Assembly: GCF_000959445.1 (NCBI RefSeq)
Contig: NZ_CP009630.1
Span: 2,108,001 to 2,172,000, forward strand
Reading direction: 5' to 3'
DNA length: 64,000 bases
Source of the DNA: Burkholderia vietnamiensis LMG 10929
GTDB taxonomy: Bacteria > Pseudomonadota > Gammaproteobacteria > Burkholderiales > Burkholderiaceae
How positions within the stretch are numbered: position 1 is the stretch's first letter; every line of letters begins with the position of its first letter. Below, piece after piece: positions 7,133 to 22,775 of this stretch. The notes under the pieces are model-generated. The model did no database searches. It was given only the letters and a program-made list of their open reading frames with translations, and was not told the origin of the DNA. The translations under genes and the position numbers were made by a program.

Positions 7133-7614
7133 TTCTCCGGAAGGGGGTATCGGGTCGTGTGCGACGCGACCATATTCGTACGTCGTCGTATCATATGGGC
7201 AAGTCTAGGCGCGTTCGTGGTCGGGCATGTATTTGTCGTTTACCCTCGATTCTCGCTGCACAAATTCGGATGTGTGCGTGCACTCACGTGAGATCCGTGA
7301 GCGTCTGTGAGATATGTCGTCGTATGTTTATGCGCACAAATTGCTGCCTGCGCCCCCATCGCGTTCGATGAATCGGGACGGTTCTCGGGCACCTTCCGGC
7401 GTGCGAAAGACTCGAGCGCCACGTATGAACACCTTCACCGCGCCAACGGCTTCGCGTACGGCCGACATCTCGCCGTGTCGCCAATCGGCCATAACTCTGC
7501 AACACCTACGCGCAGCGCCCTTCGAATCGCCTACCTGCCTCCGTGATTCCGCCTCTGTTCAACGCCCCGCCCGGCGCGCTATCGTTGCTCCACCTTCACC
7601 ACCAGGAGCTGCCT
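7133..7614. other. Divergent regulatory region, GH28 gene / aminotransferase
   Basis: A stretch of 482 bp between two divergent genes with no convincing coding frame. It holds three CGTGAG-like hexamers at 7287, 7296 and 7306 (the last TGTGAG), spaced about one helical turn apart, and CATAT/ATATG arms around 7171-7197. These may be regulator sites for the polygalacturonase gene, but I cannot name a regulator. Confidence 0.4.
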
Positions 7615-10038: not shown

Positions 10039-11775
10039 TCAACGACAACTGAAGCTCGCCGCCGAATTCACGTCGCCCGAGCCGTTGTAGCGCGCGACCT
10101 GCGGATACGGACACAACGGACGCGTGCGGCCCGCGCCCCACGACGTCGGCACCTCCGCATTCGGCAGCACATTGCTCGCGTCGCGCGCAGTCGCGACGAT
10201 CGCGGCCGGCGCCTGTCCCTGCTCGACCCACGCGACGAGCGGCGTCAGCATGTCGAACTGGTCGGCGGCCGGCCCGCCCGAGCAGTGATTCATCCCCGGC
10301 ACCGGATAGAAGCGCGCGAAGCCCGACGCGTCGCCGCCGTTCGCCTGCGCGAGCCGCGCATACCAGTCGCTCGTGTCGTTGAACGAGAACACCGGGTCGC
10401 CGGTGCCGTGATAGACGAGCAGCTTCGCGCCGCGCGACTTCAGCGCCGCCAGGTTCGTCTCGTCGGGCGGCGTCATGAAGGCCCACGACGACTGCGTGTA
10501 CACGCCGTTCGACGCGAAAATCGCCGGCGCGTCGCGGTCCATGTCGAAGCCGAGCGCGAAGCCGGCGAGATTCGCGAGCGTCGCGGCGGTCTGCGGCGGC
10601 GTCATGAACGTGAACGCCATCGCGGCCGGGTCGAGCACCACCGAATTCGACTGCTTCCACGCGGCCCATCCGCCGCCCGCGATGCCCGGATCGTACGGGA
10701 AGCTCGCGTAGAGCGCCGCGCCCGCGCTGTTTCGCGCGCCCGCGAACACGTTCCCGATCGCGCGCTTCTGCGCGCTCGTCAGGCACGCGCCGGTGCGCGT
10801 GTCGTTCGCGCAGGTCGGGACGTCCGTGTCGATGCTGAAATGCGCCTGGCACGCGGCGACGTCCTGCACCATCCCGTCGGCCGCGCCATCGAGCGCGTCG
10901 CACTTGTCGAGAATCTTCTGGCCGACGAGCCGGCGCTCCGCGTCGGTGAAGCCGCTGCGGATATCGGGCAAGCCATTCGTGCCGGTCGCCGACGCGATCT
11001 GCGCGAACTGCTGCGCGCCGTACATCTCGCCGATCGCCGCCTTCGGCAGATGGAAGCCCGGATCGCCGGCGATGATCCCGTCGTAGTCGCCTGCGTTGCG
11101 CACGGCGGTGACCATCGCGTGCCGCCCGCCGTTCGAGCAGCCGCCGAAATAGCTGCGATCGGGCGCCTTGCCGTACGCGAGCCGGATCACCTGCTTGGCC
11201 ATCGGCGTGAGCGCGTCGACCGCGCCGTAGCCGTAGTCGAGCCGCGCCTGCGGATCGAGCCCGAACAGCGGGTTCTGCGCGGCGCTGTGCCCCGAATCGG
11301 AGCTGATCACCGCGAAGCCCTGGTTCAGCGCATTGGTCAGCGGCCCGCCGCCGCCCACCTCGCCCGTCGCGGTCACGACGTTGCCGTCGAGCCCGCCGTT
11401 CGCCTGGTAGAAGAAGCGACCGTTCCACGCCTTCGGCAAGCGCATCTCGAAGCCGATCGCATAGGTTTTGCCGTCCACCGCGCTCACGCGCTCGTTCATC
11501 TTCCCTTCGATCACGCAATGCTCGGCGATCGGCTTGCCGGCCACGGCGAGCGCGCCGGCGGCCGCGGTCGTCACCGACGTGAACGACGTGTTCGCATACG
11601 ACAGCTTCGCGGCGAGCGCGTCGCAGGTCTGCGTCATCGCGGCCGGCGTCGCGGCGCTCAGGTGCGCCGGCGCGGCGTTGACGGAATCGTCGCCGCCGCA
11701 GCCGGCGAGCAGGGCCGCTGCGGACAGCGGCGCAATGCACAACAGTGCAGATTTGCTGTTCAAGATGGCTCCCAT
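10039..11775 (-). CDS. Tannase/feruloyl esterase family lipoprotein
   Basis: A 578-residue alpha/beta-hydrolase of the fungal-tannase/feruloyl-esterase family. The N-terminus has a lipoprotein signal ending LLAGCGG, so the enzyme is probably a periplasmic or surface lipoprotein. The serine nucleophile is in GGCSNGGRHAM, the aspartate in YHGTGDPVFS and the histidine in PGMNHCSGG. Paired cysteines flank the triad, as is typical for this family. It would release ferulate, p-coumarate or gallate from esters. The gene is last in the MFS-porin-esterase unit, 16 bp after the porin stop, consistent with supplying hydroxycinnamates to the pathway upstream. Confidence 0.9.
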   Translation of the reverse strand: MGAILNSKSALLCIAPLSAAALLAGCGGDDSVNAAPAHLSAATPAAMTQTCDALAAKLSYANTSFTSVTTAAAGALAVAGKPIAEHCVIEGKMNERVSAVDGKTYAIGFEMRLPKAWNGRFFYQANGGLDGNVVTATGEVGGGGPLTNALNQGFAVISSDSGHSAAQNPLFGLDPQARLDYGYGAVDALTPMAKQVIRLAYGKAPDRSYFGGCSNGGRHAMVTAVRNAGDYDGIIAGDPGFHLPKAAIGEMYGAQQFAQIASATGTNGLPDIRSGFTDAERRLVGQKILDKCDALDGAADGMVQDVAACQAHFSIDTDVPTCANDTRTGACLTSAQKRAIGNVFAGARNSAGAALYASFPYDPGIAGGGWAAWKQSNSVVLDPAAMAFTFMTPPQTAATLANLAGFALGFDMDRDAPAIFASNGVYTQSSWAFMTPPDETNLAALKSRGAKLLVYHGTGDPVFSFNDTSDWYARLAQANGGDASGFARFYPVPGMNHCSGGPAADQFDMLTPLVAWVEQGQAPAAIVATARDASNVLPNAEVPTSWGAGRTRPLCPYPQVARYNGSGDVNSAASFSCR

Positions 11776-11791: not shown

Positions 11792-12931
11792 TCAGAACAT
11801 GTGGCGCACGCCGACCATCGCGCCGAGCTGCCCCATCCCCGCGCCGGGCGTCGTGCCGGCGCCGCCGCCGCTGACCGCGTAGCGCGCATGCGCGCTGTTC
11901 CACAGATACGACGATTGCGCATAGACGGCCGTGCGCTTGCTCAGCAGATAGGTCGCGCGCAGCGTGGCCATCGTCGCGCGCGTGTCGTGCGCGCTGTTGA
12001 CGATCCGGTAGCCCTCGCCGTCGACGATGAACGCCGGCTTCACCGCATACGACGCGCCGACGAAGAACAGGTCCGAATGCGCACCCGGCGCCGCCGGCGA
12101 ACCGGTCGACACGCGCCGCCCGATCCAGCCCGCGCCGAGCCGCGCGCCGGCCGCCTGCGCATAGGCGCTCACGTGCGTGCGCGCATCCTTGCCGCCGCTG
12201 CTCGTGAACGGCACCGGCGCGACGCCGTCGAAGAAGTTCGCGGCCGCGCCCGTGCCGCCGCGCTGCTCCTCGTACGACGCCGCCGCGCCGAAATACGCGC
12301 TGTCGTACTTGAGCATCACCGACCAGTTGCGGCACTGGACGGCGTCGCCCGGCACCTGTCCCGCGCACGTGCCCTGCCCCGGCGAGTTGCCGGTGCCGGC
12401 GCCGTCGCGCCCGAACGAGTAGGCGGCGCCGAGCGTCACGCCGCGATACGTGCCGACGTAGGTCACGGCGTTGTCCGCGCGGCCGTTCGGCACGTAGGCG
12501 TCGAACGAGCCGAGCCCGTAGATGTCGGGGCCGATGATGTCGGCGCCCTGCAGCGCGAGATAGGTCATCGTGTACTGACGGCCGAAGGCCAGCGTGCCGA
12601 AGCCGCTCTTCAGCCCGACGAACGCCTGGCGCCCGAACAGCCGGCCGCCCTGGCCGAGATCGCCGCCGCGCACGTTGAAGCCGCTTTCCAGCGTGAACAC
12701 CGCCTGATAGCCGCCGCCGAGATCCTCCGTGCCGCGCAGCCCCCAGCGCGACGGCAGTTCGCCGGTCACGCCGGGCATGCGCACGACGTGATCGCCGGCC
12801 GCGTTCGCGTGCGACACGAACTCGACGCCCGTATCGATGATTCCGTACAGCGTCACGCTCGACTGCGCGTGGGCGCCGGACGCGGCGAGCGCGCATGCGC
12901 CGGCCGCCAGCAAGGCTTTGGTGTGCTTCAT
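11792..12931 (-). CDS. Gram-negative porin (OmpC-like, 16-stranded)
   Basis: A 379-residue outer-membrane porin with a signal peptide ([23 protein letters not shown] minus its last residues as the mature start region). The mature part begins SSVTLYGIIDTGVEFV, the standard beta-strand 1 of betaproteobacterial porins. It ends in a terminal phenylalanine (GVRHMF), the outer-membrane assembly signal. The ATG at 12931 is preceded by GGAGAC; an in-frame ATG at 12946 would add five residues before the signal peptide. Placement between the MFS transporter and the esterase suggests a role in aromatic-acid or ester uptake. Confidence 0.92.
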   Translation of the reverse strand: MKHTKALLAAGACALAASGAHAQSSVTLYGIIDTGVEFVSHANAAGDHVVRMPGVTGELPSRWGLRGTEDLGGGYQAVFTLESGFNVRGGDLGQGGRLFGRQAFVGLKSGFGTLAFGRQYTMTYLALQGADIIGPDIYGLGSFDAYVPNGRADNAVTYVGTYRGVTLGAAYSFGRDGAGTGNSPGQGTCAGQVPGDAVQCRNWSVMLKYDSAYFGAAASYEEQRGGTGAAANFFDGVAPVPFTSSGGKDARTHVSAYAQAAGARLGAGWIGRRVSTGSPAAPGAHSDLFFVGASYAVKPAFIVDGEGYRIVNSAHDTRATMATLRATYLLSKRTAVYAQSSYLWNSAHARYAVSGGGAGTTPGAGMGQLGAMVGVRHMF

Positions 12932-12998
12932 GTCGATTGTCTCCATACCTGCGTCGAATTCGCGCTCTGACGGCGCTCGTGGTTGAAAGTGGAAAGCC

Positions 12999-14204
12999 TC
13001 AGTCCTGCGCGGCCGGGCGCCGGATCAGCACCAGCGCGGCGATGGCGGCCACCAGCGTGACCGGGATGCTCGCGCCGATCACGACCGACGCGCTGCGGCC
13101 CATCGCGAGCAGCTGGGCGGCGGCGAGCGGCCCGACGACCGAACCGAGCCGGCCGACGGCCACCGCGGAACCGACGCCGGTGCCGCGCATCGCGGTCGGG
13201 TAGTAGATCGCGGCGAGCGCATAGAGCACCGACTGGCCGCCGACGACGAACATCCCGGCCGCGAACGCGGCCACGGACAGCCACAGCAGCCCCGGCGCGA
13301 TCGCCAGCGCCGCGAGCGACAGCACGATTCCCGCATACATGCCGCCGACCACGCGCGACGGGCGCAGCCGATCCATCGACATGCCGATGCCGAGCACGCC
13401 GAGGCCGCTGCCGATGTTGAAGAAGATCTGCACGATGCCGGCCTGACTGCGCGCGAGGCCCTTCGCGGCCATCAGCGACGGCAGCCAGTTCAGCAGGAAA
13501 TACAGCACGATCAGCGTGCAGAAGTAGCTGAGCCACAGCGCGAGCGTCGTGCCGGTGCGCGCGCCGCCGAACAGCGTGTGCCCGACCGTCGGACGCGCGG
13601 CGCCCGAGGCGCTGACGTCGAGGAACGCGCGCGATTCCGGCAGCAGCGCGATCAGCACCGGCGCGAGCAGCAGCGGCCCGACGCCGCCGACGTAGAAGAT
13701 GTGCCGCCATTCGGCGTCGCCGGCGAGCAGCACGCCGATCAGCGACGCGATCACGCCGCCGAACGGAATCCCGCAGTACATCACGGCGACCGCGCTGCTG
13801 CGCGAGCGCGGCTCGACCGATTCGGACGACAAAGCGATCAGGTTCGGCATCGCGCCGCCGAGGCCGAGGCCCGTGAGCGCACGCACCGCGACCAGCATCG
13901 CAAAGCCCGACACCTGCGCGGTCGCGATCGACAGCAGCCCGAACAGGCACACGGACGCGATCAGCACCTGCTTGCGGCCGATGCGGTCGGCGAGCCAGCC
14001 GCCGAGCATCGCGCCCGGCAGCAGGCCGAACGTGCCCGCGCTGAACGCGAGCCCCATCTGCGAAACCGACAACCCGAATTCGTGGGCCATGCGCGGCGCG
14101 GCGACGCCGACCGACTGCAGGTCGAGCCCTTCGAGCAACGCGATCGCGAAACACAGGCCGAGCGTCGTCGCGACGGCCGGCCTTGCGGCAACGGAAGTGT
14201 CCAT
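12999..14204 (-). CDS. MFS aromatic-acid transporter (AAHS-like)
   Basis: A 401-residue, twelve-helix major facilitator protein. The N-terminal helix carries the D-rich motif LLEGLDLQSVGVAAPRM, typical of the aromatic acid:H+ symporter group (PcaK/VanK-like). The loop 2-3 motif is GGWLADRIGRK. It probably imports ferulate, coumarate, vanillate or a related acid across the inner membrane. Two copies of the proposed MarR operator lie 80-153 bp upstream of its start. It is the first gene of a three-gene unit with the porin and the esterase. Confidence 0.92.
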   Translation of the reverse strand: MDTSVAARPAVATTLGLCFAIALLEGLDLQSVGVAAPRMAHEFGLSVSQMGLAFSAGTFGLLPGAMLGGWLADRIGRKQVLIASVCLFGLLSIATAQVSGFAMLVAVRALTGLGLGGAMPNLIALSSESVEPRSRSSAVAVMYCGIPFGGVIASLIGVLLAGDAEWRHIFYVGGVGPLLLAPVLIALLPESRAFLDVSASGAARPTVGHTLFGGARTGTTLALWLSYFCTLIVLYFLLNWLPSLMAAKGLARSQAGIVQIFFNIGSGLGVLGIGMSMDRLRPSRVVGGMYAGIVLSLAALAIAPGLLWLSVAAFAAGMFVVGGQSVLYALAAIYYPTAMRGTGVGSAVAVGRLGSVVGPLAAAQLLAMGRSASVVIGASIPVTLVAAIAALVLIRRPAAQD

Positions 14205-14283: not shown

Positions 14284-14298
14284 ATCAGGTAGCCTGAT
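14284..14298. promoter_or_regulatory. Proposed MarR operator copy 1 (MFS promoter)
   Basis: ATCAGGTAGCCTGAT, 7-bp arms around a central A with one mismatch. It lies 80 bp upstream of the MFS start and matches two other copies in the window, one of them upstream of ech. Confidence 0.75.
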
Positions 14299-14342
14299 TA
14301 ACAGCCCGAAATAAAATCCCGTCGGGGACGCGATGATTTAAT

Positions 14343-14357
14343 AACAGGTAACCTGAT
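14343..14357. promoter_or_regulatory. Proposed MarR operator copy 2 (MFS promoter)
   Basis: AACAGGTAACCTGAT, one mismatch from the perfect palindrome. Its centre is 59 bp from copy 1, between the MarR and MFS genes. Two sites in one promoter suggest cooperative or looped repression. Confidence 0.72.
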
Positions 14358-14487
14358 ATTTCAAGTGCAGCGAGCGCGGTGTTAACCCGCAACGCAGCGG
14401 GAATCAAAGCCGCGTTGCATCGTGTTGCGGTGCGATGTGGGCAGCGGTGGGGTTGAGGGACGGGAAACTGCGAGGGGCAGGGGTAAC

Positions 14488-14516
14488 GCGAGGGCGAGGG
14501 CGAGGGCGAGGGCGAG
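14488..14516. repeat. GCGAGG microsatellite
   Basis: Four perfect tandem GCGAGG hexamers (14488-14511) plus a partial fifth, followed by degenerate GGC/GGA triplets. Non-coding; copy number may vary between strains. Confidence 0.8.
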
Positions 14517-14619
14517 CGCGAGGGAAGCGGAGGCGGAGGCGATAGCGGTAGCGGTAAGAACAAGCGCCACGACGCGGCAACGGCTACGGCGGCCACGGCC
14601 GCCGTAGCCGCCGCGATAC

Positions 14620-15144
14620 TCAGTCGCGCAAATTACGCACGAACAGTTCGAGCGTGCGCTGCACCTGCGCGACGTCGTCGCTGCTCACGTCGTCGCCGAG
14701 CATCCGGCGTTCGAGCGGCCGCAGCACCTGTTCGCATTCGCGCAGGATCGCCGAGCCGGCGTCGGTGAGGCGCAGCAGGATCACGCGACCATGGCTCGGA
14801 TCGGCCTCGCGCGTCACGAAGCCGCGCGCGGCCATCGCGACCATCACCTCGTTCGCGGATTGCGGCGTGATGAACGAGCGCACCGCGAGCTGCGCATTGG
14901 ACAGCGCGCCGCGCACCTCCAGCACCGACAACGCCGTGTACTGCGCGAGCGTCACGCCGAGCGGCGCGAGTGCATCGCTCATCTGGCGGCGCAGCAGCCG
15001 GTCGAGATTGCCGATCAGATAGGTGAGCCGCTGCTGCGCACGCATGCGCGGCCTGGCTTCGGTGGCGCGGGCCGTGCGCTTCGCGCCGGCCGGTTTGACG
15101 GGTGTCGAACTCATGAACGTGTCGGTAGGAGAATCGCGGGCCAT
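14620..15144 (-). CDS. MarR-family regulator of the hydroxycinnamate genes
   Basis: A 174-residue winged-helix regulator. The N-terminal 35 residues are basic and low in complexity (KPAGAKRTARATEARPRMRA). The MarR core begins with LTYLIGNLDRLLRRQM. The recognition region is ALSNAQLAVRSFITPQSANEVM and the wing is DPSHGRVILLRLTDAG. The ATG at 15144 has GAGG just upstream. It lies between the ech-vdh-fcs-acd unit and the MFS-porin-esterase unit, both preceded by the same palindrome. By analogy with FerC, CouR and HcaR, it would repress them until a hydroxycinnamoyl-CoA binds. No copy of the palindrome is obvious at its own promoter. Confidence 0.88.
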   Translation of the reverse strand: MARDSPTDTFMSSTPVKPAGAKRTARATEARPRMRAQQRLTYLIGNLDRLLRRQMSDALAPLGVTLAQYTALSVLEVRGALSNAQLAVRSFITPQSANEVMVAMAARGFVTREADPSHGRVILLRLTDAGSAILRECEQVLRPLERRMLGDDVSSDDVAQVQRTLELFVRNLRD

Positions 15145-15624
15145 CTTACCTCACCGGGGCGGCGTGACGGTCCGAGGATGCGCGGCTCGTCGATGCGCTG
15201 CGCGACGACCCGGCGCTCGCACGCTATCACTGGCTGCCGACGGTACGCGGCGACCTGCGCGCGAAGCTCGGCCGCGCCGCGGAGGCGACGCGCAACGCGC
15301 GCGAAAGGGCATTGCCGCTCGGACGCGTGGCCGATGCATGACCTGCGGTGGCGGATGCGGCACGTCGCGCGCGCGGGCCGCCTGCGCATGGCTGCGGCCA
15401 GCGGGCAACAGTCCGTGACAGGTGAAGCAGCGCGCCAGATTCAGACGCTCCACCCGGGACGTCCGAACGCGACGGCAACGACAACGGCGACTGCACCATG
15501 CCGCTGCGTGCGCCGTGCGGATGGCCCCGAAGCTCACCCACGAATCCCCCGCGCACCGACCCACAGGCACCCCGTCCCCGCCGCCGCCTCGCTCACCTTG
15601 GGCACACGGCAACGCAACGAGCCC
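15145..15624. other. Gene-free stretch containing a sigma-factor remnant
   Basis: A stretch of 480 bp between the acyl-CoA dehydrogenase stop and the MarR start. Apart from the pseudogene fragment at 15168-15341 I see no gene, and no terminator after the dehydrogenase. Confidence 0.55.
15168..15341 (+). pseudogene. C-terminal remnant of an ECF sigma factor (DUF6596 type)
   Basis: A frame running from just after a stop at 15165-15167 to the TGA at 15339-15341. It reads LVDALRDDPALARYHWLP, TVRGDLRAKLGRAAEA, then TRNARERALPLGR. This matches, from memory of the family, the TPR-like C-terminal tail of large ECF42/SigJ-type sigma factors. The usual segment between the LGR..EA helix and the TRNARER motif is missing, so the fragment also carries an internal deletion. 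No sigma2 or sigma4 region is present nearby. It is on the strand opposite to its neighbours and has no start codon. Confidence 0.55.
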
Positions 15625-17385
15625 CTACCCCGCCATAGCCGCCACACGCGGCAGCCCCGCGCGCAAGCCGGCATCGACCAACGCGAGCCGGTGCGTGAAT
15701 GCCGCGAGCGGATAGTCGAAGAAGTACCCACCGACCTCGCGCTTGTCCGCACGAAACGGATCGTCCGCCGCCCCCACACCGACGATGCGCAGCGTGCGCG
15801 CCCACGCGAACGCGAGCAGCAGCCAGCCGAGCAGCGCGAGATAGTCGTCCGCGACGCGGTACGGCAGCTCGGGATCGCCGTCGCTCGCGTCGAGCAGCGC
15901 CGCGCTCACGCGCTCGACCTCCGCGCACAACGCGGCCACCCGCGTTCCAGCGGCGCGCGTGAGCGGGTCCGCAGGCGCGTCGCTGCATGCGGCCGCTTCC
16001 GCGCGAATTCGCGCCAGCAGCGCGCCGAGCGCGTCGCCGCGATCGCCGAGCACCTTGCGCACCAGCAGATCGATCGCCTGAATCTCGTTGGTGCCCTCAT
16101 ACAGCATCGACACGCGGCAATCGCGCAGCGTCTGCTCGATCCCGTATTCGTGCACGTAGCCGTAGCCGCCGAACACCTGCAGCGCATTCGACGCGGTCGC
16201 GAAGCCGTTCGCCGTGAAGAACGCCTTCGCGACCGGCGTGAGCAACGACGCGAGCTTCGTCGCCGCGTCTCGCGCCGACGCGTCCGGGTCGTGCGCGGCG
16301 ACGTCGAGCCAGTGCGCGATCCAGTAGCCGATCGCACGCTCACCTTCGACCGTCGCACGCGCATCGAGCAGGATGCGGCGGATCGCCGGGTGTTGCGCGA
16401 TCGGCGCCGCGCGGCCCTGCACGCGTTCGCCCGCATACGCGGACGCAGCCTGCCACGCGCTGTGCGCGTGCCCGACGCCCTGCATCGCGACCTGCAGGCG
16501 CGCCGCGTTCATCATCACGAACATCGCGGCCAGCCCGCGATGCGCGTCGCCGACGAGCCAGCCGAGCGCCGCGTCGAAGCGCATCGTGCAGGTCGGGCTC
16601 GCCTTCAGCCCCATCTTGTGCTCGATGCCGTCGCACCAGATGCCGTTGCGCACGCGCCCGCCCGCCGCGTCGAGCCACTTCGGCACGACGAACAGCGACA
16701 GCCCCTTCGTGCCGGCCGGCGCATCGGGCAGCCGCGCGAGCACCAGATGCACGATGTTCTCGGTCAGATCGTGGTCGCCGCCGGTGATGAACAGCTTGCT
16801 GCCGCTGATGCGGTAGCCGTCGCCGGTCGGGTCCGGCGCCGCGCGCGTGCGCAGCAGCCCGAGATCGCTGCCCGCCTGAGGCTCGGTGATGCACATCGTC
16901 GTCAGCCATGCGCCGCTGGCGATCTTCGGCAGGATGTCGCGCTTCACGCGCGCGCAGCCGTGCGCGCTCACGCAGGCCACCGCGCCGTGCGTGAGCCCCG
17001 GCGACATCAGCCACGCGTGGTTCGCGCCCGCGAGCATTTCCTGCAGCGCGACGTCGAGCAGATGCGGCAGCCCCTGGCCGCCGCACGCCGGATCGAGCGC
17101 GAGCGTCGGCCAGCCGGCCGCGACGTAGTCGCGATACGCGTCGCGAAAGCCGGCCGGCATCGTCACGTCGGCGCCGTCGAAACGGCAGCCTTCGACGTCG
17201 CCGCTCGCATCGAGCGGCGCGATCCGCTCGGCGACGAAACGCGCGGCTTCGTCGAGCACCTGCTCGGCGACGCTTACGTCGAGATCGGCCCAGTCCGGCA
17301 CGCGGCGCCACAGCGCCGGCGCATCGAGCCATTCGCCGATCACGAACAGCATGTCGCGCAGCGGCGCGCGATAGGTGGCGCTCAT
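15625..17385 (-). CDS. Acyl-CoA dehydrogenase of the hydroxycinnamate operon
   Basis: A 586-residue FAD-dependent acyl-CoA dehydrogenase of the long (FadE-like) type, with a helical C-terminal extension after the catalytic domain. Visible landmarks are MCITEPQAGSDLG (FAD/substrate loop), the FGGYGYVHEYGIEQTLRD flavin contact, and MLYEGTNEIQA carrying the catalytic glutamate. It starts 10 bp after the feruloyl-CoA synthase stop. In this operon it probably desaturates phenylpropanoyl-CoA thioesters such as dihydroferuloyl-CoA to the cinnamoyl-CoA level, widening the substrate range. That role is inferred from context. Confidence 0.9.
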   Translation of the reverse strand: MSATYRAPLRDMLFVIGEWLDAPALWRRVPDWADLDVSVAEQVLDEAARFVAERIAPLDASGDVEGCRFDGADVTMPAGFRDAYRDYVAAGWPTLALDPACGGQGLPHLLDVALQEMLAGANHAWLMSPGLTHGAVACVSAHGCARVKRDILPKIASGAWLTTMCITEPQAGSDLGLLRTRAAPDPTGDGYRISGSKLFITGGDHDLTENIVHLVLARLPDAPAGTKGLSLFVVPKWLDAAGGRVRNGIWCDGIEHKMGLKASPTCTMRFDAALGWLVGDAHRGLAAMFVMMNAARLQVAMQGVGHAHSAWQAASAYAGERVQGRAAPIAQHPAIRRILLDARATVEGERAIGYWIAHWLDVAAHDPDASARDAATKLASLLTPVAKAFFTANGFATASNALQVFGGYGYVHEYGIEQTLRDCRVSMLYEGTNEIQAIDLLVRKVLGDRGDALGALLARIRAEAAACSDAPADPLTRAAGTRVAALCAEVERVSAALLDASDGDPELPYRVADDYLALLGWLLLAFAWARTLRIVGVGAADDPFRADKREVGGYFFDYPLAAFTHRLALVDAGLRAGLPRVAAMAG

Positions 17386-17395
17386 CGTGCGCCCC

Positions 17396-19300
17396 TCATG
17401 CGCGGCGCGGCGCGCTGGCGACGATCACGCCCGCGTCGGCCGCATCCGGCCCGTACATCGCGTCGACCACCGCCGCGCGATGCGCGAGCACCGCGCGCTG
17501 GTTGATCGAGCCCTTGTCGGTGATCTCGCCGAGATCGAGCGACGGCGGCGTGTCGAGCACGCACAGCCGCGTGACGAAGCTCGCGCTGCCGGTCGCATCG
17601 CGGTTCAGCCGCGCGAGCAAGTCCGCGAAGAACGCGCGCACCGCGCTCGCCTGCAGCACGGTGCGAATGTCCGCGTCCGCCGCCGCGCCGGCCAGGCGAC
17701 GGCAATCGTCGATGCGCGGGAAGATCATCACGCCGACGTCGTCGCGGTTCATTCCGGTGATCACCGCGTCCTGCACGTACGGCGCGCCGTTCGACACGAT
17801 GCGCGCGCGCATCGGCCCGACGCTCACGAACGTGCCCGACGACAGCTTGAAGTCCTCCGCGATGCGCCCGTCGAACATCAGGCCGATCTCCGGGCGCGCG
17901 GGATCGACGAAGCGCACCGCGTCGCCGCTGCGGTAATAGCCTTCGTCGTCGAACACTTCGCGCGCGTCGTCGCCGCTCGCGCGCCAGTAGCCGGCCATCA
18001 CGTTCGGCCCGCGAAAGCGCGCTTCGAGCTTGCCGTCGATCGGCACCAGCTTCGCGTCGCAGCCGGGTGCGGGCAGGCCGATGTAGCCGGCGCCCGACAT
18101 CGGCCCGGTCGTGAACATGCACGACGGTGCGGCTTCGGTCATCCCGAGGCCCGCCATGATGCGGATACGCTCGCCGCAGTGCGCGAGCGTCACGCGCTCG
18201 AGCCGGTCCCACGCCGCCTGCGACAGCCCCGCGCCCGCGAAGAAGTACATCCGGACGCGCGAGAAGAACGTGTCGCGCAGCGCGGCGTCGGTCTCGAGCG
18301 CGGCCGCGAGCTCCTCCCAGCCTTTCGGCACGTTGAAGTACACGGTCGGCGCGATCTCGCGCAGGTTGCGCAGCGTCTCGGCGAACTTGCCGGCGACCGG
18401 CTTGCCGTCGTCGATGTACAGCGTGCCGCCGTTGTACAGCGCGATGCCGACGTTGTGGCTGCCGCCGAACGTGTGATTCCACGGCAGCCAGTCGACCAGC
18501 ACCGGCGGCTCCAGCCCGAATTGCGGGAAGGTTTCGAGCAGCATCTGCTGGTTGCTGCACAGCATCCGGTGCGTGGTGGGCACCGCCTTCGGCAGCCGCG
18601 TCGATCCCGACGTGAAGAGGAATTTCGCGATCGTGTCGCCGGTGACCGCGTCGTGCGCGGCATCGACGCCCGCCGGCCGCGTGTCGAGCAGCGCCGAGAA
18701 CCGCGTGACGCCGTCCATTCCGTCGGGCGCCGTCACGACCACGCGCTCCACGTCGCTCGGCACCGCGGCGTCGAGCGCGGCGCGGAAGGCCGCGCCGTCC
18801 GACGCGAACACGAGCCCCGGCGTCAGCAGCGCGAGCGCATGGCGCAGCTTGCCGTAATCGCTCGACACGAGCGAATACGCGGGCGACAGCGGCGCATGCG
18901 GAATGCCGGCCCACATCGCGCCGAACGCGAGCTGCAGATGCTCGAGGTCGTTGCCGGACAGGATCGCGATCGGCCGCTCGGCCGACAGCCCGCGATCGAG
19001 CAGCGCCTGGCCGATCGCGCGGGCGCGCTCGAGCATCTGCGCATAGCTGATGCCGATCCACGCGCCGTCGGGGCCGCGCCGCGCGACCAGCCAGCGGTCC
19101 GGGTGCGCCTGCGCGCCGCTGACGAGCCGGTCGGTGAGCCGGCGCGGATACGCGCCGAGCGCGCTCGCCGCGCGCAAGGTCCAGCAGCCGTCGCGTTGCG
19201 CGATCTCCGGCGGCGCCGTGCCGATCGCCACGGGGCGATAGCCGGCGGGGACGGGCTGCACGACGGCCGCGTCGCGCAGTTGGGGTCGTTCCGCATCCAC
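17396..19300 (-). CDS. fcs: Feruloyl-CoA synthase
   Basis: A 634-residue adenylate-forming CoA ligase that activates ferulate, p-coumarate or caffeate with ATP and CoA. The P-loop motif is LFTSGSTRLPKAVPTTH and the aromatic pocket region is WLPWNHTFGGSHNVG. The hinge region is DGRIAEDFKLSSGTFVSVG, and the C-terminal catalytic lysine is in ITDKGSINQRAV. Replacement of the usual TGKxxR-type ending by DKGSINQ is typical of bacterial Fcs. It is the third gene of ech-vdh-fcs-acd, 99 bp after vdh. Confidence 0.93.
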   Translation of the reverse strand: MDAERPQLRDAAVVQPVPAGYRPVAIGTAPPEIAQRDGCWTLRAASALGAYPRRLTDRLVSGAQAHPDRWLVARRGPDGAWIGISYAQMLERARAIGQALLDRGLSAERPIAILSGNDLEHLQLAFGAMWAGIPHAPLSPAYSLVSSDYGKLRHALALLTPGLVFASDGAAFRAALDAAVPSDVERVVVTAPDGMDGVTRFSALLDTRPAGVDAAHDAVTGDTIAKFLFTSGSTRLPKAVPTTHRMLCSNQQMLLETFPQFGLEPPVLVDWLPWNHTFGGSHNVGIALYNGGTLYIDDGKPVAGKFAETLRNLREIAPTVYFNVPKGWEELAAALETDAALRDTFFSRVRMYFFAGAGLSQAAWDRLERVTLAHCGERIRIMAGLGMTEAAPSCMFTTGPMSGAGYIGLPAPGCDAKLVPIDGKLEARFRGPNVMAGYWRASGDDAREVFDDEGYYRSGDAVRFVDPARPEIGLMFDGRIAEDFKLSSGTFVSVGPMRARIVSNGAPYVQDAVITGMNRDDVGVMIFPRIDDCRRLAGAAADADIRTVLQASAVRAFFADLLARLNRDATGSASFVTRLCVLDTPPSLDLGEITDKGSINQRAVLAHRAAVVDAMYGPDAADAGVIVASAPRRA

Positions 19301-19399
19301 GTTCTGTCTCCGTTCGACTCCGCCCGGCGCGCTCGCGCATGCGGGCGGAGACTTCGTTGTGTCGTTATAGAGTGGCGGCGCCGCGGCGCCGGGTGCTGC

Positions 19400-20851
19400 T
19401 CAAATCGGGTAATGGCGCGGCGTGGTCTGGACGGTGATCCAGCGCAGGTCGGTGAACTCGGCGATCGACGCCTTGCTGCCGAACCGGCCGTAGCCGCTCG
19501 CCTTCACGCCGCCGAACGGCATCTGCGCCTCGTCGTGCACGGTCGGCCCGTTGATGTGGCAGATGCCCGATTCGATCCGCTTCGCGAGCTGCATCGCGCG
19601 CGCGATGTCGCGGCTGAACACCGCAGCCGACAAACCGTATTCGCTGTCGTTCGCGGCCGCGAGCGCCGCTTCGTCGCCGTCGACGCGCTGCACGGTCACC
19701 ACCGGCCCGAACGATTCGTCGGCGTAGAGCTGCATCTCGCGCGTGACGCCGTCGACGATGGTCGGCTGCATCACCGCGCCGTCGACCTCGCAGCCGAGCG
19801 GCAGCGCGGCGCCGTGCGCGTGCGCATCGGCGACCATCGCGGCGATCCGCTGCGCGGCCGCCGCGCTTTCCAGCGTGCCGAGCACGACGCCCGGCGCGGC
19901 CGGGTTGCCGGCCTTCAGCGTGCGCGCCTTGGCGACCAGCCGTGCGACGAACGCATCGGCGACCTTGCGATCGACGATCACGCGCTCGGTCGACATGCAG
20001 ATCTGCCCCTGGTTGAAGAACGCGCCGAACGCGACCGCATCGACCGCCGCGTCGAGATCGGCGTCGTCGAGCACGAGCACGGGCGCCTTGCCGCCGAGTT
20101 CGAGCAGCGCCGGCTTCAGGTGCTGCGCGGCGAGCGTCGCGACGATCCGGCCCACGCGCGTCGAGCCAGTGAAGTTCACGCGCCGCACGGCCGGGTTCGC
20201 GATCAGCCGCTCGACGATCGCCGGCGCATCCTGCGGCGCGTGCGTGATCACGTTGACGACGCCGTCGCCGAGCCCCGCGTCGTGCAGCACGCTGCCGATC
20301 AGCCGGTGCACGCCCGGACATCCTTCGGAGGCCTTCAGCACGACCGTATTGCCGCACGCGAGCGGCATCGCGAGAGCACGCGTCGCGAGGATCACCGGCG
20401 CATTCCACGGCGCGATCCCGAGCACCACGCCGCACGGCTGGCGCACGGCCATCGCGATGCTGCCCGGCACGTCGGACGGAATCACCGCGCCGTCGATCTG
20501 CGTCGTCATCGCGGCGGCCTCGCGCAGCATGTTGGCGGCGAGCATCACGTTGAAGCCGTACCAGTTCGCCATCGCGCCGGTTTCCGCGCGGCCGGTCTCG
20601 ATGAATTCGCCGGCGCGTGCGTCCATCCGGTCGGCCGCCGCCAGCAGCCGGCGGCGGCGCTCGGTCGGCGCCAGCGCCGCCCACGCGGGGAACGCGCGCG
20701 CGGCGGCCGCGACCGCGGCATCCGCATCGGCGAGCGTCGCCGCGGCCGCGCGCGACGCGACCTGCCCGGTCGCCGGGTCGATCCGGTCGAACGTCCCGCC
20801 GTCCGACGCGCCGCGCGACACGCCGTCGATCAACAAACTCACTTCGTGCAT
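19400..20851 (-). CDS. vdh: Vanillin/aromatic aldehyde dehydrogenase
   Basis: A 483-residue NAD(P)-dependent aldehyde dehydrogenase. The Rossmann entry is APWNAPVILATRALAMPLAC, the general-base glutamate is in LELGGKAPVLVLDDAD, and the nucleophilic cysteine is in FNQGQICMSTERVIV. The C-terminal ESFGPVV and MPFGGVKASGYGRFG motifs are intact. It oxidises vanillin or 4-hydroxybenzaldehyde released by the hydratase-lyase to vanillate or 4-hydroxybenzoate. AGGAG lies just before the ATG. It is the second gene in the operon, 33 bp after ech. Confidence 0.92.
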   Translation of the reverse strand: MHEVSLLIDGVSRGASDGGTFDRIDPATGQVASRAAAATLADADAAVAAAARAFPAWAALAPTERRRRLLAAADRMDARAGEFIETGRAETGAMANWYGFNVMLAANMLREAAAMTTQIDGAVIPSDVPGSIAMAVRQPCGVVLGIAPWNAPVILATRALAMPLACGNTVVLKASEGCPGVHRLIGSVLHDAGLGDGVVNVITHAPQDAPAIVERLIANPAVRRVNFTGSTRVGRIVATLAAQHLKPALLELGGKAPVLVLDDADLDAAVDAVAFGAFFNQGQICMSTERVIVDRKVADAFVARLVAKARTLKAGNPAAPGVVLGTLESAAAAQRIAAMVADAHAHGAALPLGCEVDGAVMQPTIVDGVTREMQLYADESFGPVVTVQRVDGDEAALAAANDSEYGLSAAVFSRDIARAMQLAKRIESGICHINGPTVHDEAQMPFGGVKASGYGRFGSKASIAEFTDLRWITVQTTPRHYPI

Positions 20852-20884
20852 TTCGGTGTCTCCTCTCAGGTCTGGCCGCGCGCG

Positions 20885-21712
20885 TCAGCGCTTGTACGCC
20901 TGCAGGCCCGGCTTGATGCTCTTGTCGTCGAGGAACTGCTTGAGGCCCTGCTCGCGCCCGCCTTCCGGGTCGCGATAGTTGGCCTGGTCGAGCTTCGCGT
21001 ACAGGTAGTCCTCGTTCTGCTCCCAGGTCAGCTCGCGGCAGCGCTTGAAGCCGTGCTTCGCGTTGCGGATCACGACCGGGTTCTTGTCGAGCAGCTTCGC
21101 GGCGAGCGCGCGCACTTCGTCACGCAGCTGCGCGCGCGGCACGCTCTTGTTGACGAGCCCCATCCGCGCGGCCTGCTGGCCGGTGAACGTATCGCCGGTC
21201 ATGATGTAGTAGAGCGCCTCGCGGTGCCCGACGGTGTCCGCCATCGCCTTGCTGACGAGGTTGCCCGGCGGGATGCCCCAGTTGATTTCCGACAGCCCGA
21301 ACACCGCCTCGTCGGCCGCGATCGCGAGGTCGCAGGCGACCAGCGGCGAGAATCCGCCGCCGAAGCACCAGCCGTTGACCATCGCGATCGTCGGCTTCGC
21401 GTACATGCGCAGCAATTGCCACTGCCAGCGGCTCGCGTCGCGGCGAATCTTCTCCTGCAGGATTTCCGGGCCCGCGTCGATCTCGCGGAAGTACTCCTTC
21501 AGGTCCATCCCGGCCGTCCATGCATCGCCTTCGCCGGTCAGCACCAGCACCTGCGCGTCGGCGTCGAGCTCGATCGCCTCGAGCACGTCGATCATCTCCG
21601 TGTTCAGCGTCGGGCTCATCGCGTTGCGCTTTTCCGGACGGTTCAGCGTCACCCATGCGATGCCGCCCGCGACCTCGACCTTCACCGTTTTCCAGCGCCC
21701 TTCGTAACCCAT
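20885..21712 (-). CDS. ech: Hydroxycinnamoyl-CoA hydratase-lyase
   Basis: A 275-residue crotonase-fold enzyme that hydrates feruloyl-CoA and cleaves it to vanillin plus acetyl-CoA. The start MGYEGRWKTVKVEV at 21712 has GGAG upstream, and this N-terminus is characteristic of HCHL proteins; an in-frame codon at 21757 would run into the promoter. The oxyanion-hole region is WTAGMDLKEYFREID. The conserved NGWCFGGGFSPLVACDLAIA and SEINWGIPPGNLVSKAMA follow, including the glutamate used in catalysis. It is first in the operon, 52 bp from a perfect operator palindrome. Confidence 0.93.
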   Translation of the reverse strand: MGYEGRWKTVKVEVAGGIAWVTLNRPEKRNAMSPTLNTEMIDVLEAIELDADAQVLVLTGEGDAWTAGMDLKEYFREIDAGPEILQEKIRRDASRWQWQLLRMYAKPTIAMVNGWCFGGGFSPLVACDLAIAADEAVFGLSEINWGIPPGNLVSKAMADTVGHREALYYIMTGDTFTGQQAARMGLVNKSVPRAQLRDEVRALAAKLLDKNPVVIRNAKHGFKRCRELTWEQNEDYLYAKLDQANYRDPEGGREQGLKQFLDDKSIKPGLQAYKR

Positions 21713-21763
21713 CTTCGTTCTCCAATGACAGTGCCGCCCCGTGCGACTCGCAACCAATTTACT

Positions 21764-21778
21764 ATCAGGTAACCTGAT
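21764..21778. promoter_or_regulatory. Proposed MarR operator copy 3 (ech/amidohydrolase promoter)
   Basis: ATCAGGTAACCTGAT, a perfect 15-bp palindrome in the 169-bp divergent gap. It is flanked by TTTAC on one side and GTAAA on the other, which extends the dyad and resembles overlapping -35-like elements for both directions. It probably controls ech leftward and the amidohydrolase rightward. Confidence 0.8.
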
Positions 21779-21881
21779 ATGTAAAGTAGAATGGAAGCGG
21801 CTCGGGACAAACCCCTAAACGGGCGCGCAAGGCGGTTTTGGCGCGGCGCCGGCCGGCCGCTCACGACATGAGGAGACACGC

Positions 21882-22775
21882 TTGGACATCGACAACCTGA
21901 TCGCCATCGACACGCACGTGCACGCCGAAGTGTCGTGCTGCCAGCCGCCGGACCTGTTCGCGAAGGCGTTCGACGACGCGGCCGACAAGTATTTCGGCAC
22001 GGTGCTGAAGCAGGGCCGCCGGCCGACGATTCCGGAGACGATCGCGTATTACCGCGAGCGCCGGATCGGCTTCGTGATGTTCACCGTCGATTGCGAGAGC
22101 AACATCGGGCGGCGGCGCATTCCGAACGAGGAGATCGCGCAATTCGCGCAGGACAACGCGGACGTGATGATCGCGTTCGCGAGCATCGACCCGCACAAGG
22201 GCCGCCTCGGCGCGCGCGAAGCGCGCCGGCTGATCGAGGAACACGGCGTGCGCGGCTTCAAGTTCCATCCGACGATGCAGGGATGCTTTCCGAACGACCG
22301 GCTCGCGTATCCGGTCTACGAGGTGATCGCCGAATACGGGCTGCCGGCCGTGTTCCACAGCGGGCATTCGGGAATGGGGTCGGGGATGCGCGGCGGCGGC
22401 GGGCTGCGTCTGAAGTATTCCGAACCGATCCATCTCGACGACGTCGCCGCCGACTTCCCCGACATGAAGATCGTGATCGCGCACCCGTCGTGGCCGTGGC
22501 AGGAACAGGCGCTGTCGATCGCGCTGCACAAGCCGAACGTGTACATCGACCTGTCCGGCTGGTCGCCGAAGTATTTCTCGCCGGAACTCGTCAAATACGC
22601 GAACACGTTGCTCAGGCACAAGGTGCTGTTCGCGTCCGATTTCCCGCTGATCCGGCCGGACCGCTGGCTGGAAGACTTTCACGGCGCCGGGTTCCGGCCC
22701 GACGTGCATCCGCTGATCCTGAAGGACAACGCGGTCGCGCTGCTGGCGCTGCGTCAGGAAGCGGCGCAGGCGTGA
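21882..22775 (+). CDS. Amidohydrolase-family (TIM-barrel) hydrolase
   Basis: A 297-residue metal-dependent hydrolase. The metal-binding IDTHVHAE starts at residue 9; FKFHPTMQGCFP, FHSGHSG, VIAHPSWPWQEQA and LFASDFPL give the remaining metal ligands and catalytic aspartate. The start is a TTG at 21882 with AGGAG at 21871-21875; no ATG fits. It is divergent from ech across the proposed operator. In some actinobacterial and alphaproteobacterial coumarate clusters a hydrolase of this superfamily cleaves hydroxyphenyl-beta-ketoacyl-CoA. That suggests a second, beta-oxidative side route here, but decarboxylase or lactonase activity is also possible. Confidence 0.82.
   Translation: MDIDNLIAIDTHVHAEVSCCQPPDLFAKAFDDAADKYFGTVLKQGRRPTIPETIAYYRERRIGFVMFTVDCESNIGRRRIPNEEIAQFAQDNADVMIAFASIDPHKGRLGAREARRLIEEHGVRGFKFHPTMQGCFPNDRLAYPVYEVIAEYGLPAVFHSGHSGMGSGMRGGGGLRLKYSEPIHLDDVAADFPDMKIVIAHPSWPWQEQALSIALHKPNVYIDLSGWSPKYFSPELVKYANTLLRHKVLFASDFPLIRPDRWLEDFHGAGFRPDVHPLILKDNAVALLALRQEAAQA

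Follow-up and report, generated by a model that had tools for sequence, protein, structure and literature searches.

A 64,000-nucleotide stretch of the genome of Burkholderia vietnamiensis LMG 10929 (contig NZ_CP009630.1, positions 2,108,001 to 2,172,000), referred to here as the window, carries a cluster of hydroxycinnamate genes, a gene for a MarR-family regulator and three copies of a 15-bp palindrome, ATCAGGTAACCTGAT. Judging from sequence comparisons, the palindrome very probably serves as operator for the product of marR (14620–15144), a Burkholderiaceae HcaR that would repress the two operons ech-vdh-fcs-acd and mfs-porin-fae. An earlier note on this DNA had proposed such a MarR-controlled regulon, and the gene surroundings it described (mfs-porin-fae, marR, acd-fcs-vdh-ech and a divergent amidohydrolase) have been confirmed with Pfam and curated models. 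The genes of the cluster are listed below.

10039–11775, minus strand: fae, tannase/feruloyl esterase family (PF07519, Tannase, E 6.9e-130)
11792–12946, minus strand: porin (Porin_4)
12999–14204, minus strand: mfs, MhpT-type aromatic acid transporter (NF008586, 614 bits, cut-off 410)
14620–15144, minus strand: marR, HcaR-type MarR-family regulator of 174 amino acids (HcaR match, E 9.9e-30)
15625–17385, minus strand: acd, acyl-CoA dehydrogenase (family-level match)
17396–19300, minus strand: fcs, AMP-binding enzyme resembling feruloyl-CoA synthetase (PRK12582 the best model, its 692 bits falling short of the cut-off of 777)
19400–20851, minus strand: vdh, aldehyde (vanillin) dehydrogenase (Aldedh)
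20885–21712, minus strand: ech, p-hydroxycinnamoyl-CoA hydratase/lyase (NF006588, 505.4 bits, cut-off 276)
21882–22775, plus strand: amh, Amidohydro_2 protein divergent from ech (Pfam match)

The product of ech belongs to the Ech group by its score above a curated equivalog cut-off. Genomic context points to the feruloyl role of fcs and the vanillin role of vdh, and the functions given for acd, the porin and the amidohydrolase are likewise suggested by family-level matches or context. The start listed for the ech open reading frame, a TTG at 21757, falls within the predicted ech promoter, and the ATG at 21712 is the likely start.

A scan of both strands of the window located the palindrome where the earlier note had placed it, with no mismatch at 21764–21778 and one mismatch each at 14284–14298 and 14343–14357. 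These are the only three places in the window with up to three mismatches (six rows over both strands), while dinucleotide shuffles averaged 0.16 matches and never exceeded 2 (100 shuffles), so that the copies are far more than chance would produce. In the whole genome of 6,930,496 bases, the places with at most two mismatches are again the three of the window, all others having three; row totals were 27 for the palindrome and 17 for a reversed control pattern. The core of the operator can be written ATCAGG-N3-CCTGAT.

The regulator has been assigned to the MarR family by PF12802 (38.7 bits) and PF01047 (32.7 bits), both over their gathering scores, and among proteins of solved structure its closest match is HcaR (E 9.9e-30, the next best reaching 3.5e-15). 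The recognition helix PQSAN occurs in the HcaR structure sequence and in all 27 readable MarR rows of the helix alignment, whose 31 rows include four fragments (L139, L149, L150 and L151) and from which L142 is missing; alignment A1 covered 17 of the 26 proteins first tried. The closest relative, the shared helix and the linkage of the gene to ech, vdh and fcs all mark the protein as HcaR-type, and no NCBIfam equivalog reaches its cut-off against it. By comparison, the CouR entry 6c28 is matched at E 1.8e-6, far weaker than HcaR, and 5CYV (CouR of strain RHA1) is absent from the 45 structure matches at E 0.01, so that a close relationship to CouR is not indicated. Identity to the corresponding proteins of sister species is high (93% in B. 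seminalis, 92% in B. multivorans, 91% in both B. cepacia and B. dolosa).

Regulators of this kind have been described in other bacteria, and the comparisons that follow draw on excerpts of the published accounts. MarR-type HcaR, CouR, FerC and FerR are reported there to govern hydroxycinnamate genes, mainly through CoA thioesters, and HcaR has been crystallised with a free aromatic acid (PMC10458429, PMC5487221, PMC4737184). HcaR of Acinetobacter (3K0L, 4RGR, 4RGS, 4RGU, 4RGX, 5BMZ), the closest solved relative of the window protein and a carrier of the same PQSAN helix, is reported to control hydroxycinnamate genes, the same gene class as that of the window cluster. CouR of Rhodococcus jostii RHA1 and Rhodopseudomonas palustris and FerC of Sphingobium SYK-6 are described as MarR repressors released by hydroxycinnamoyl-CoA, although CouR is more distant in sequence from the window protein and the RHA1 pathway is described as beta-oxidative. 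FerR of Pseudomonas fluorescens BF13 resembles the window system in the MarR-type control of non-beta-oxidative ferulate genes but differs in being described as both activator and repressor. In Cupriavidus basilensis B-8, a related beta-proteobacterium, a MarR protein, a transporter and a porin are named together as hcaR, hcaK and hcaX, but by annotation only, with neither operator nor promoter given in the excerpts and one passage terming HcaR an activator (PMC3560178). Since HcaR, HcaK and HcaX have been annotated in Cupriavidus and HcaR is mentioned for a Burkholderia strain in the part of the source seen (PMC6880542), the kind of regulator is already known. No account of this operator in Burkholderiaceae was found in the article listings and excerpts covered, to which RegPrecise and many subscription papers do not belong, so an earlier prediction may exist.

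The three copies of the palindrome are not equivalent: O1 and O2 each occupy the spacer of a predicted promoter, while O3 lies beyond the mfs promoter on its downstream side. The elements concerned are given below in the order of their coordinates.

14284–14298, minus strand: O3, about 30–45 bases downstream of the predicted P1 start (by arithmetic)
14336–14341, minus strand: predicted –10 box of the mfs promoter P1, TTAAAT
14343–14357, minus strand: O2, in the 17-bp spacer of predicted P1
14359–14364, minus strand: predicted –35 box of P1, TTGAAA
14377–14388, minus strand: second conserved element of P1, GGGTTAACACCG
21757–21762, minus strand: GTAAAT, predicted –10 box for ech, separated from the operator by a single base (from sequence; register conserved)
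21764–21778, minus strand: O1, the operator copy without mismatch, within the 17-bp spacer between the predicted ech –35 and –10 boxes
21780–21785, minus strand: TTTACA, predicted –35 box for ech, separated from the operator by a single base (from sequence; register conserved)
21787–21792, plus strand: predicted –10 box of the divergent amh promoter, TAGAAT, 8 bp beyond O1 reading away from ech
21803–21814, minus strand: second conserved element of the ech promoter, GGGTTTGTCCCG

In this layout, the 17-bp promoter spacer is made up of the 15-mer operator and one base on either side. The same arrangement was seen in other promoters, the sets used for these comparisons being hand-chosen (33 promoters for the pattern and the second element, 26 for the divergent box and 15 for identity). 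The majority pattern among the 33, of which 25 belong to ech or fae and eight to mfs, is CTT-N4-T-[15-mer]-A-N-TAAAT. Pairwise identity over the 15 widely spread promoters is 96% in the operator arms, 70% in the –35 block and 83% in the –10 block, compared with 26–46% in the regions beyond. No –35 and –10 boxes in the matching register accompany O3 at 14284–14298.

A further element, with the consensus GGGTTTNNACCG, lies upstream of the –35 box. At least eight of its ten positions are matched in 27 of the 33 promoters, across genera, and the best match begins 31–37 bp upstream of the operator in 32 of them. Shuffled controls averaged 0.9, with 5 as the highest value, a comparison that is optimistic because the consensus was derived from the same sequences. 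The element is possibly the site of a second regulator.

This architecture suggests how the regulon may be switched, the direction of control, the binding, the inducer and the transcription starts all being predictions. A MarR dimer on O1 or O2 would fill the entire spacer between the –35 and –10 boxes and bar RNA polymerase from both operon promoters; on O1 it would also mask the –35 position of the divergent amidohydrolase promoter, while O3 may serve as a roadblock that tightens repression or as cover for a second weak promoter. Once hydroxycinnamates enter the cell, a pathway compound would free the repressor, either a hydroxycinnamoyl-CoA in the manner of CouR and FerC or, following the proposal made for HcaR, a free acid, and this would lead to the joint induction of ester cleavage, uptake and CoA-dependent breakdown. 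Such a model would provide a concrete and testable operator and promoter layout for the catabolism of hydroxycinnamates (lignin phenolics) in a bacterial family associated with soil and plants. On this model the esterase, the porin, the importer and the catabolic enzymes would be switched as one unit, and the operator could act as a sensor part for ferulate or coumarate. The regulatory logic itself is of a known kind and the surprise is moderate.

The protein could instead be an activator or a dual regulator, like FerR of Pseudomonas fluorescens, and not a pure repressor. The entry of FerR as R/A in a table of the review, in the portion seen (PMC10458429), and the hint of a further input given by the conserved element upstream of the –35 box lend this alternative some weight. 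It is nonetheless improbable, given that a dimer lying across the whole spacer would be expected to block the polymerase and that HcaR, CouR and FerC are described, in the excerpts cited above, as repressors.

Control by an HcaR through the palindrome is supported by its distribution in 60 Burkholderia genomes, 52 of which hold the 15-mer with at most one mismatch, whereas a backward control pattern matched a single time across the whole set. The 95 rows found correspond to 87 distinct places, since eight perfect palindromes were counted on both strands. Of these places, 84 lie within the hydroxycinnamate cluster, 82 of them in fetched loci, where they were assigned to ech, mfs or marR, and two in G038, whose cluster was counted from coordinates alone and includes a site upstream of its ech. 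The three remaining one-mismatch sites, the only ones outside the cluster in the 60 genomes, are at G036:C2:412107, G025:C2:337079 and G060:C1:263466.

Presence of the site follows that of the genes. An ech gene was detected in 53 of the 60 genomes (E 1e-60), this MarR in 54 (E 1e-40) and both in 52, and none of the seven genomes without ech has a site with at most one mismatch. In G055, which has ech but no such site, a two-mismatch site lies in the ech promoter. The earlier note had made its reading depend on the palindrome recurring at orthologous promoters, and the reading has withstood this comparison: a site lies just upstream of all 54 ech genes examined (that of the window, those of 52 relatives and the second ech operon of G012). 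Likewise, every fetched locus of form A (11) and of form B (38), forms that are defined below, has a site upstream of mfs, as do eight of 20 loci from other genera.

Two main gene orders were observed among the fetched loci. Form A, found in the window and ten relatives, reads fae-porin-mfs-[site,site]-marR-(acd)-fcs-vdh-ech-[site], acd being present in three of the ten relatives only (L054, L061 and L062; tblastn, E 1e-20). Form B, represented by 38 relatives, typically reads marR-[site]-ech-vdh-fcs-[site]-mfs-porin-fae; one of its loci, L096, runs out at a contig end. In the form B locus L105, no vdh match occurs between ech and fcs, and in L069 vdh is reduced to a short remnant. The operator persists through the changes in gene order, in orientation and in the ech-vdh-fcs genes themselves.

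Beyond Burkholderia, a composite motif of operator and –10 box (at most two mismatches) was found in 107 of 299 genomes of the family, spanning nine of 25 genera, whereas its backward control gave zero among the matches listed. Twenty motif loci from other genera were hand-picked for spread among the matches listed, with MarR not looked at, and every one of them holds a homologue of the window MarR (tblastn, 47–73% identity), located directly across the operator from ech in 13. In L155, whose stretch lacks ech, the motif precedes fae, and the loci L139 and L142 seem to be broken or incomplete. Conversely, among 47 hand-chosen genomes without the motif, MarR was detected in three (E ≤1e-25) and ech in one (E ≤1e-90), the promoter of this single ech having a one-mismatch site, ATCAGGTAGCTTGAT. 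The MarR thus tracks the motif in both directions which, together with the confinement of nearly all sites to the cluster, supports the single regulon put forward in the earlier note. A class-wide MarR search at E 1e-28 returned only the genome of the window itself among 274, a result that says little, given the strict threshold and the 222 genera covered.

Control of marR itself appears to vary. The earlier note had reported no copy of the palindrome at the promoter of marR, which holds for the window, where the best match in the 320 bp upstream has three mismatches in the 12 arm bases and lies 281 bp away, but does not extend to all relatives. In six form A relatives (L055, L057–L061), about 3 kb separate the end of the operon from marR, and in five of these marR is preceded by a site that differs at no more than two positions, the sixth (L058) having a weaker one with two arm mismatches. 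No upstream site was found in relatives where marR lies close behind the operon (L054, L056, L062, L063), nor in the window with its gap of 480 bp. The gene is thus probably autoregulated, either by read-through or through its own operator; in the window, marR would probably be transcribed by read-through from the ech operon, or from another promoter.

The one long gap that was read, that of L059, holds a GntR gene (Pfam) and vanA- and vanB-like genes (by eye), and the similar gap of L143, from another genus, holds a vanA gene by Pfam. The van-like genes beside marR link vanillate demethylation to the cluster. Repeats of TGTATACA upstream of marR, together with the GntR and vanAB-like genes, were noted between the end of fcs or acd and marR at 7597–10563 of L059 and 10786–13900 of L143. 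A vanA-like gene is also found elsewhere in the genome of the window (C2:243602, 75% to L143).

A natural loss of the regulator is seen in G030, where the operators are kept (the ech copy without mismatch, the mfs copy differing from the 15-mer at two positions) and no marR of this family is found, the best MarR profile score being 52 bits compared with 269 in the window. A tract of about 1.1 kb in this genome (L070 8700–9832, covering the end of sgl, amh, the operator and the start of ech) is 98.5–100% identical to the window, while its flanks are at 94–96% to the form B relative L084. The near-identical tract within form B flanks suggests that recombination replaced marR in this genome, and the loss looks recent. 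Operators may therefore persist for some time after their regulator is gone, or else be bound by another factor. The model's expectation for G030 is constitutive expression.

Several of these observations weigh against the palindrome being the operator of the adjacent MarR. Apart from the case of G030, MarR is present without ech in G133 and G194, with no convincing site within about 1.5 kb of it, and in G029, where no site was seen in a stretch that stops at a contig end. G032 also keeps marR, with two degenerate operators downstream (L071 9633 and 9698) and no ech in the genome (E 1e-60), in what is an apparent remnant of the cluster. Upstream of marR in L143, despite its van-gene insert, there is no operator, and in the Acinetobacter indicus cluster described below only 11 of 15 bases of the candidate operator are the same as in O1, by our own reading. 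Moreover, related genomes are non-independent samples, and the co-occurrence of MarR and site also fits plain co-inheritance of a compact cluster, though the site survives rearrangement and the swapping of structural genes.

It could accordingly be proposed that a different regulator binds the palindrome while the adjacent MarR serves other targets, as the operators of G030 without an HcaR-type gene and the MarR genes without ech in G029, G032, G133 and G194 would allow. This is less probable still than an activating MarR: homologues of the protein accompany all 20 loci picked by motif in other genera and hardly occur in genomes that lack the motif (3 of 47), and the loss in G030 looks recent. 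Promoter spacers are normally not conserved in sequence. That the palindromes are conserved promoter sequence or a product of chance, with no regulatory protein involved, is very improbable, since, although some conservation is expected between –35 and –10 boxes, the arms are almost identical over 15 diverse promoters and both O3 and the sites upstream of marR stand outside the promoter register. An HcaR-type regulon of a known regulator kind, with a well-defined operator and promoter layout, is thus the reading supported by these sequences. Nature offers variants with which the repression model can be checked, in which marR has been lost, genes swapped or the divergent promoter decayed.

The divergent promoter has been examined through the position of its –10 box. 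All 12 promoters that face amh in the divergent direction, four of them with marR in between, show TANAAT there, as does one of 14 without amh, the sole exception being L067; in the five form A relatives lacking amh, the position reads CGGAAT or CGGATT. These counts support a divergent amh promoter with its –35 position beneath O1, although the pattern was spotted first and counted later, and the cases are not independent events, given that the sequences are related and G030 has the tract of the window.

The two forms also differ in the history of their genes, as judged from five representatives of each. Between forms, the porin (92%) and fae (90%) are as similar as within them, while identity is lower than within forms for ech (82%), vdh (76%) and fcs (70%), and ech and vdh of form A are nearer to most of the other genera compared than to form B. 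On account of this divergence, ech-vdh-fcs of form B look foreign, yet this operator precedes them as well. Over 33 upstream bases, the ech promoter of form B shares 63% identity with the window promoter near 14343 (shuffles: mean 28%, maximum 58%, 2000 draws). The two promoters are homologous, so that one marR-side promoter would drive the transport genes in the window and the catabolic genes in form B. Of the two arrangements, that of form B is the more likely to be derived, since marR-[promoter]-mfs is also found in other genera. The opposite course, in which form B lost an ech operon from between marR and mfs and so gave rise to form A, was dropped in view of that arrangement (L140, L141, L143, L153, L154) and of the closeness of form A ech and vdh to other genera.

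Taken further, and more tentatively, the hydroxycinnamate promoters of Burkholderiaceae may constitute a portable two-input cassette, in which a spacer-filling HcaR operator and GGGTTTNNACCG, for a second regulator, were kept in place while the genes behind them were exchanged. In this possible scenario, the cassette beside marR would now drive apparently foreign ech-vdh-fcs genes in most sister Burkholderia (38 of the 52 fetched ech-bearing relatives), and its homologue in the window the transporter operon.

Similar arrangements occur in more distant bacteria. A plasmid of Acinetobacter indicus holds acd-fcs-vdh-ech, mhpT, marR, gntR and van-type genes together; unlike the window, it has no annotated esterase in the part seen, for which the gene table is perhaps incomplete. 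The ech promoter of the plasmid, CTTGAAT-GTAAGCTTAACTGAT-ATTAAATT, has a spacer that, by our own reading, may be one base shorter. In Rhodococcus opacus, ATCAGTGACTCTGAT lies between ech and a MarR gene whose product is 38–39% identical to that of the window and has the helix TAQSM, unlike PQSAN, and ATCAGGGTCTCTGAT lies at a second promoter near ech-marR. This suggests, on thin evidence from two strains, an old operator core ATCAG-N5-CTGAT. Beside MarR in Neorhizobium, in Pseudonocardia (L053) and in a second Rhodococcus cluster, this core was not found with at most one mismatch. A second ATCAG-N5-CTGAT palindrome was noted in R. opacus not far from ech-marR, in the interval that separates an IclR regulator from a gene for an alcohol dehydrogenase (L171 8278, L173 7279).

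A few minor features complete the description of these loci. The second ech-vdh-fcs-acd operon of G012 (L108, G012:C90) has its own spacer operator, ATCAGGTCGCCTGAT, and no marR homologue was detected in its 20-kb stretch (E 1e-20). In the window, an open frame of 54 amino acids in the gap between acd and marR (15177–15341, plus strand) is possibly a gene remnant; Pfam and NCBIfam searches gave no match, and an apparent resemblance to a sigma-factor tail is accordingly not claimed. The gap between marR and mfs measures 418 bp in the window, compared with 276–289 bp in the ten form A relatives, and short repeats of the GAGGGC type are present at 14485–14560, between marR and O2.

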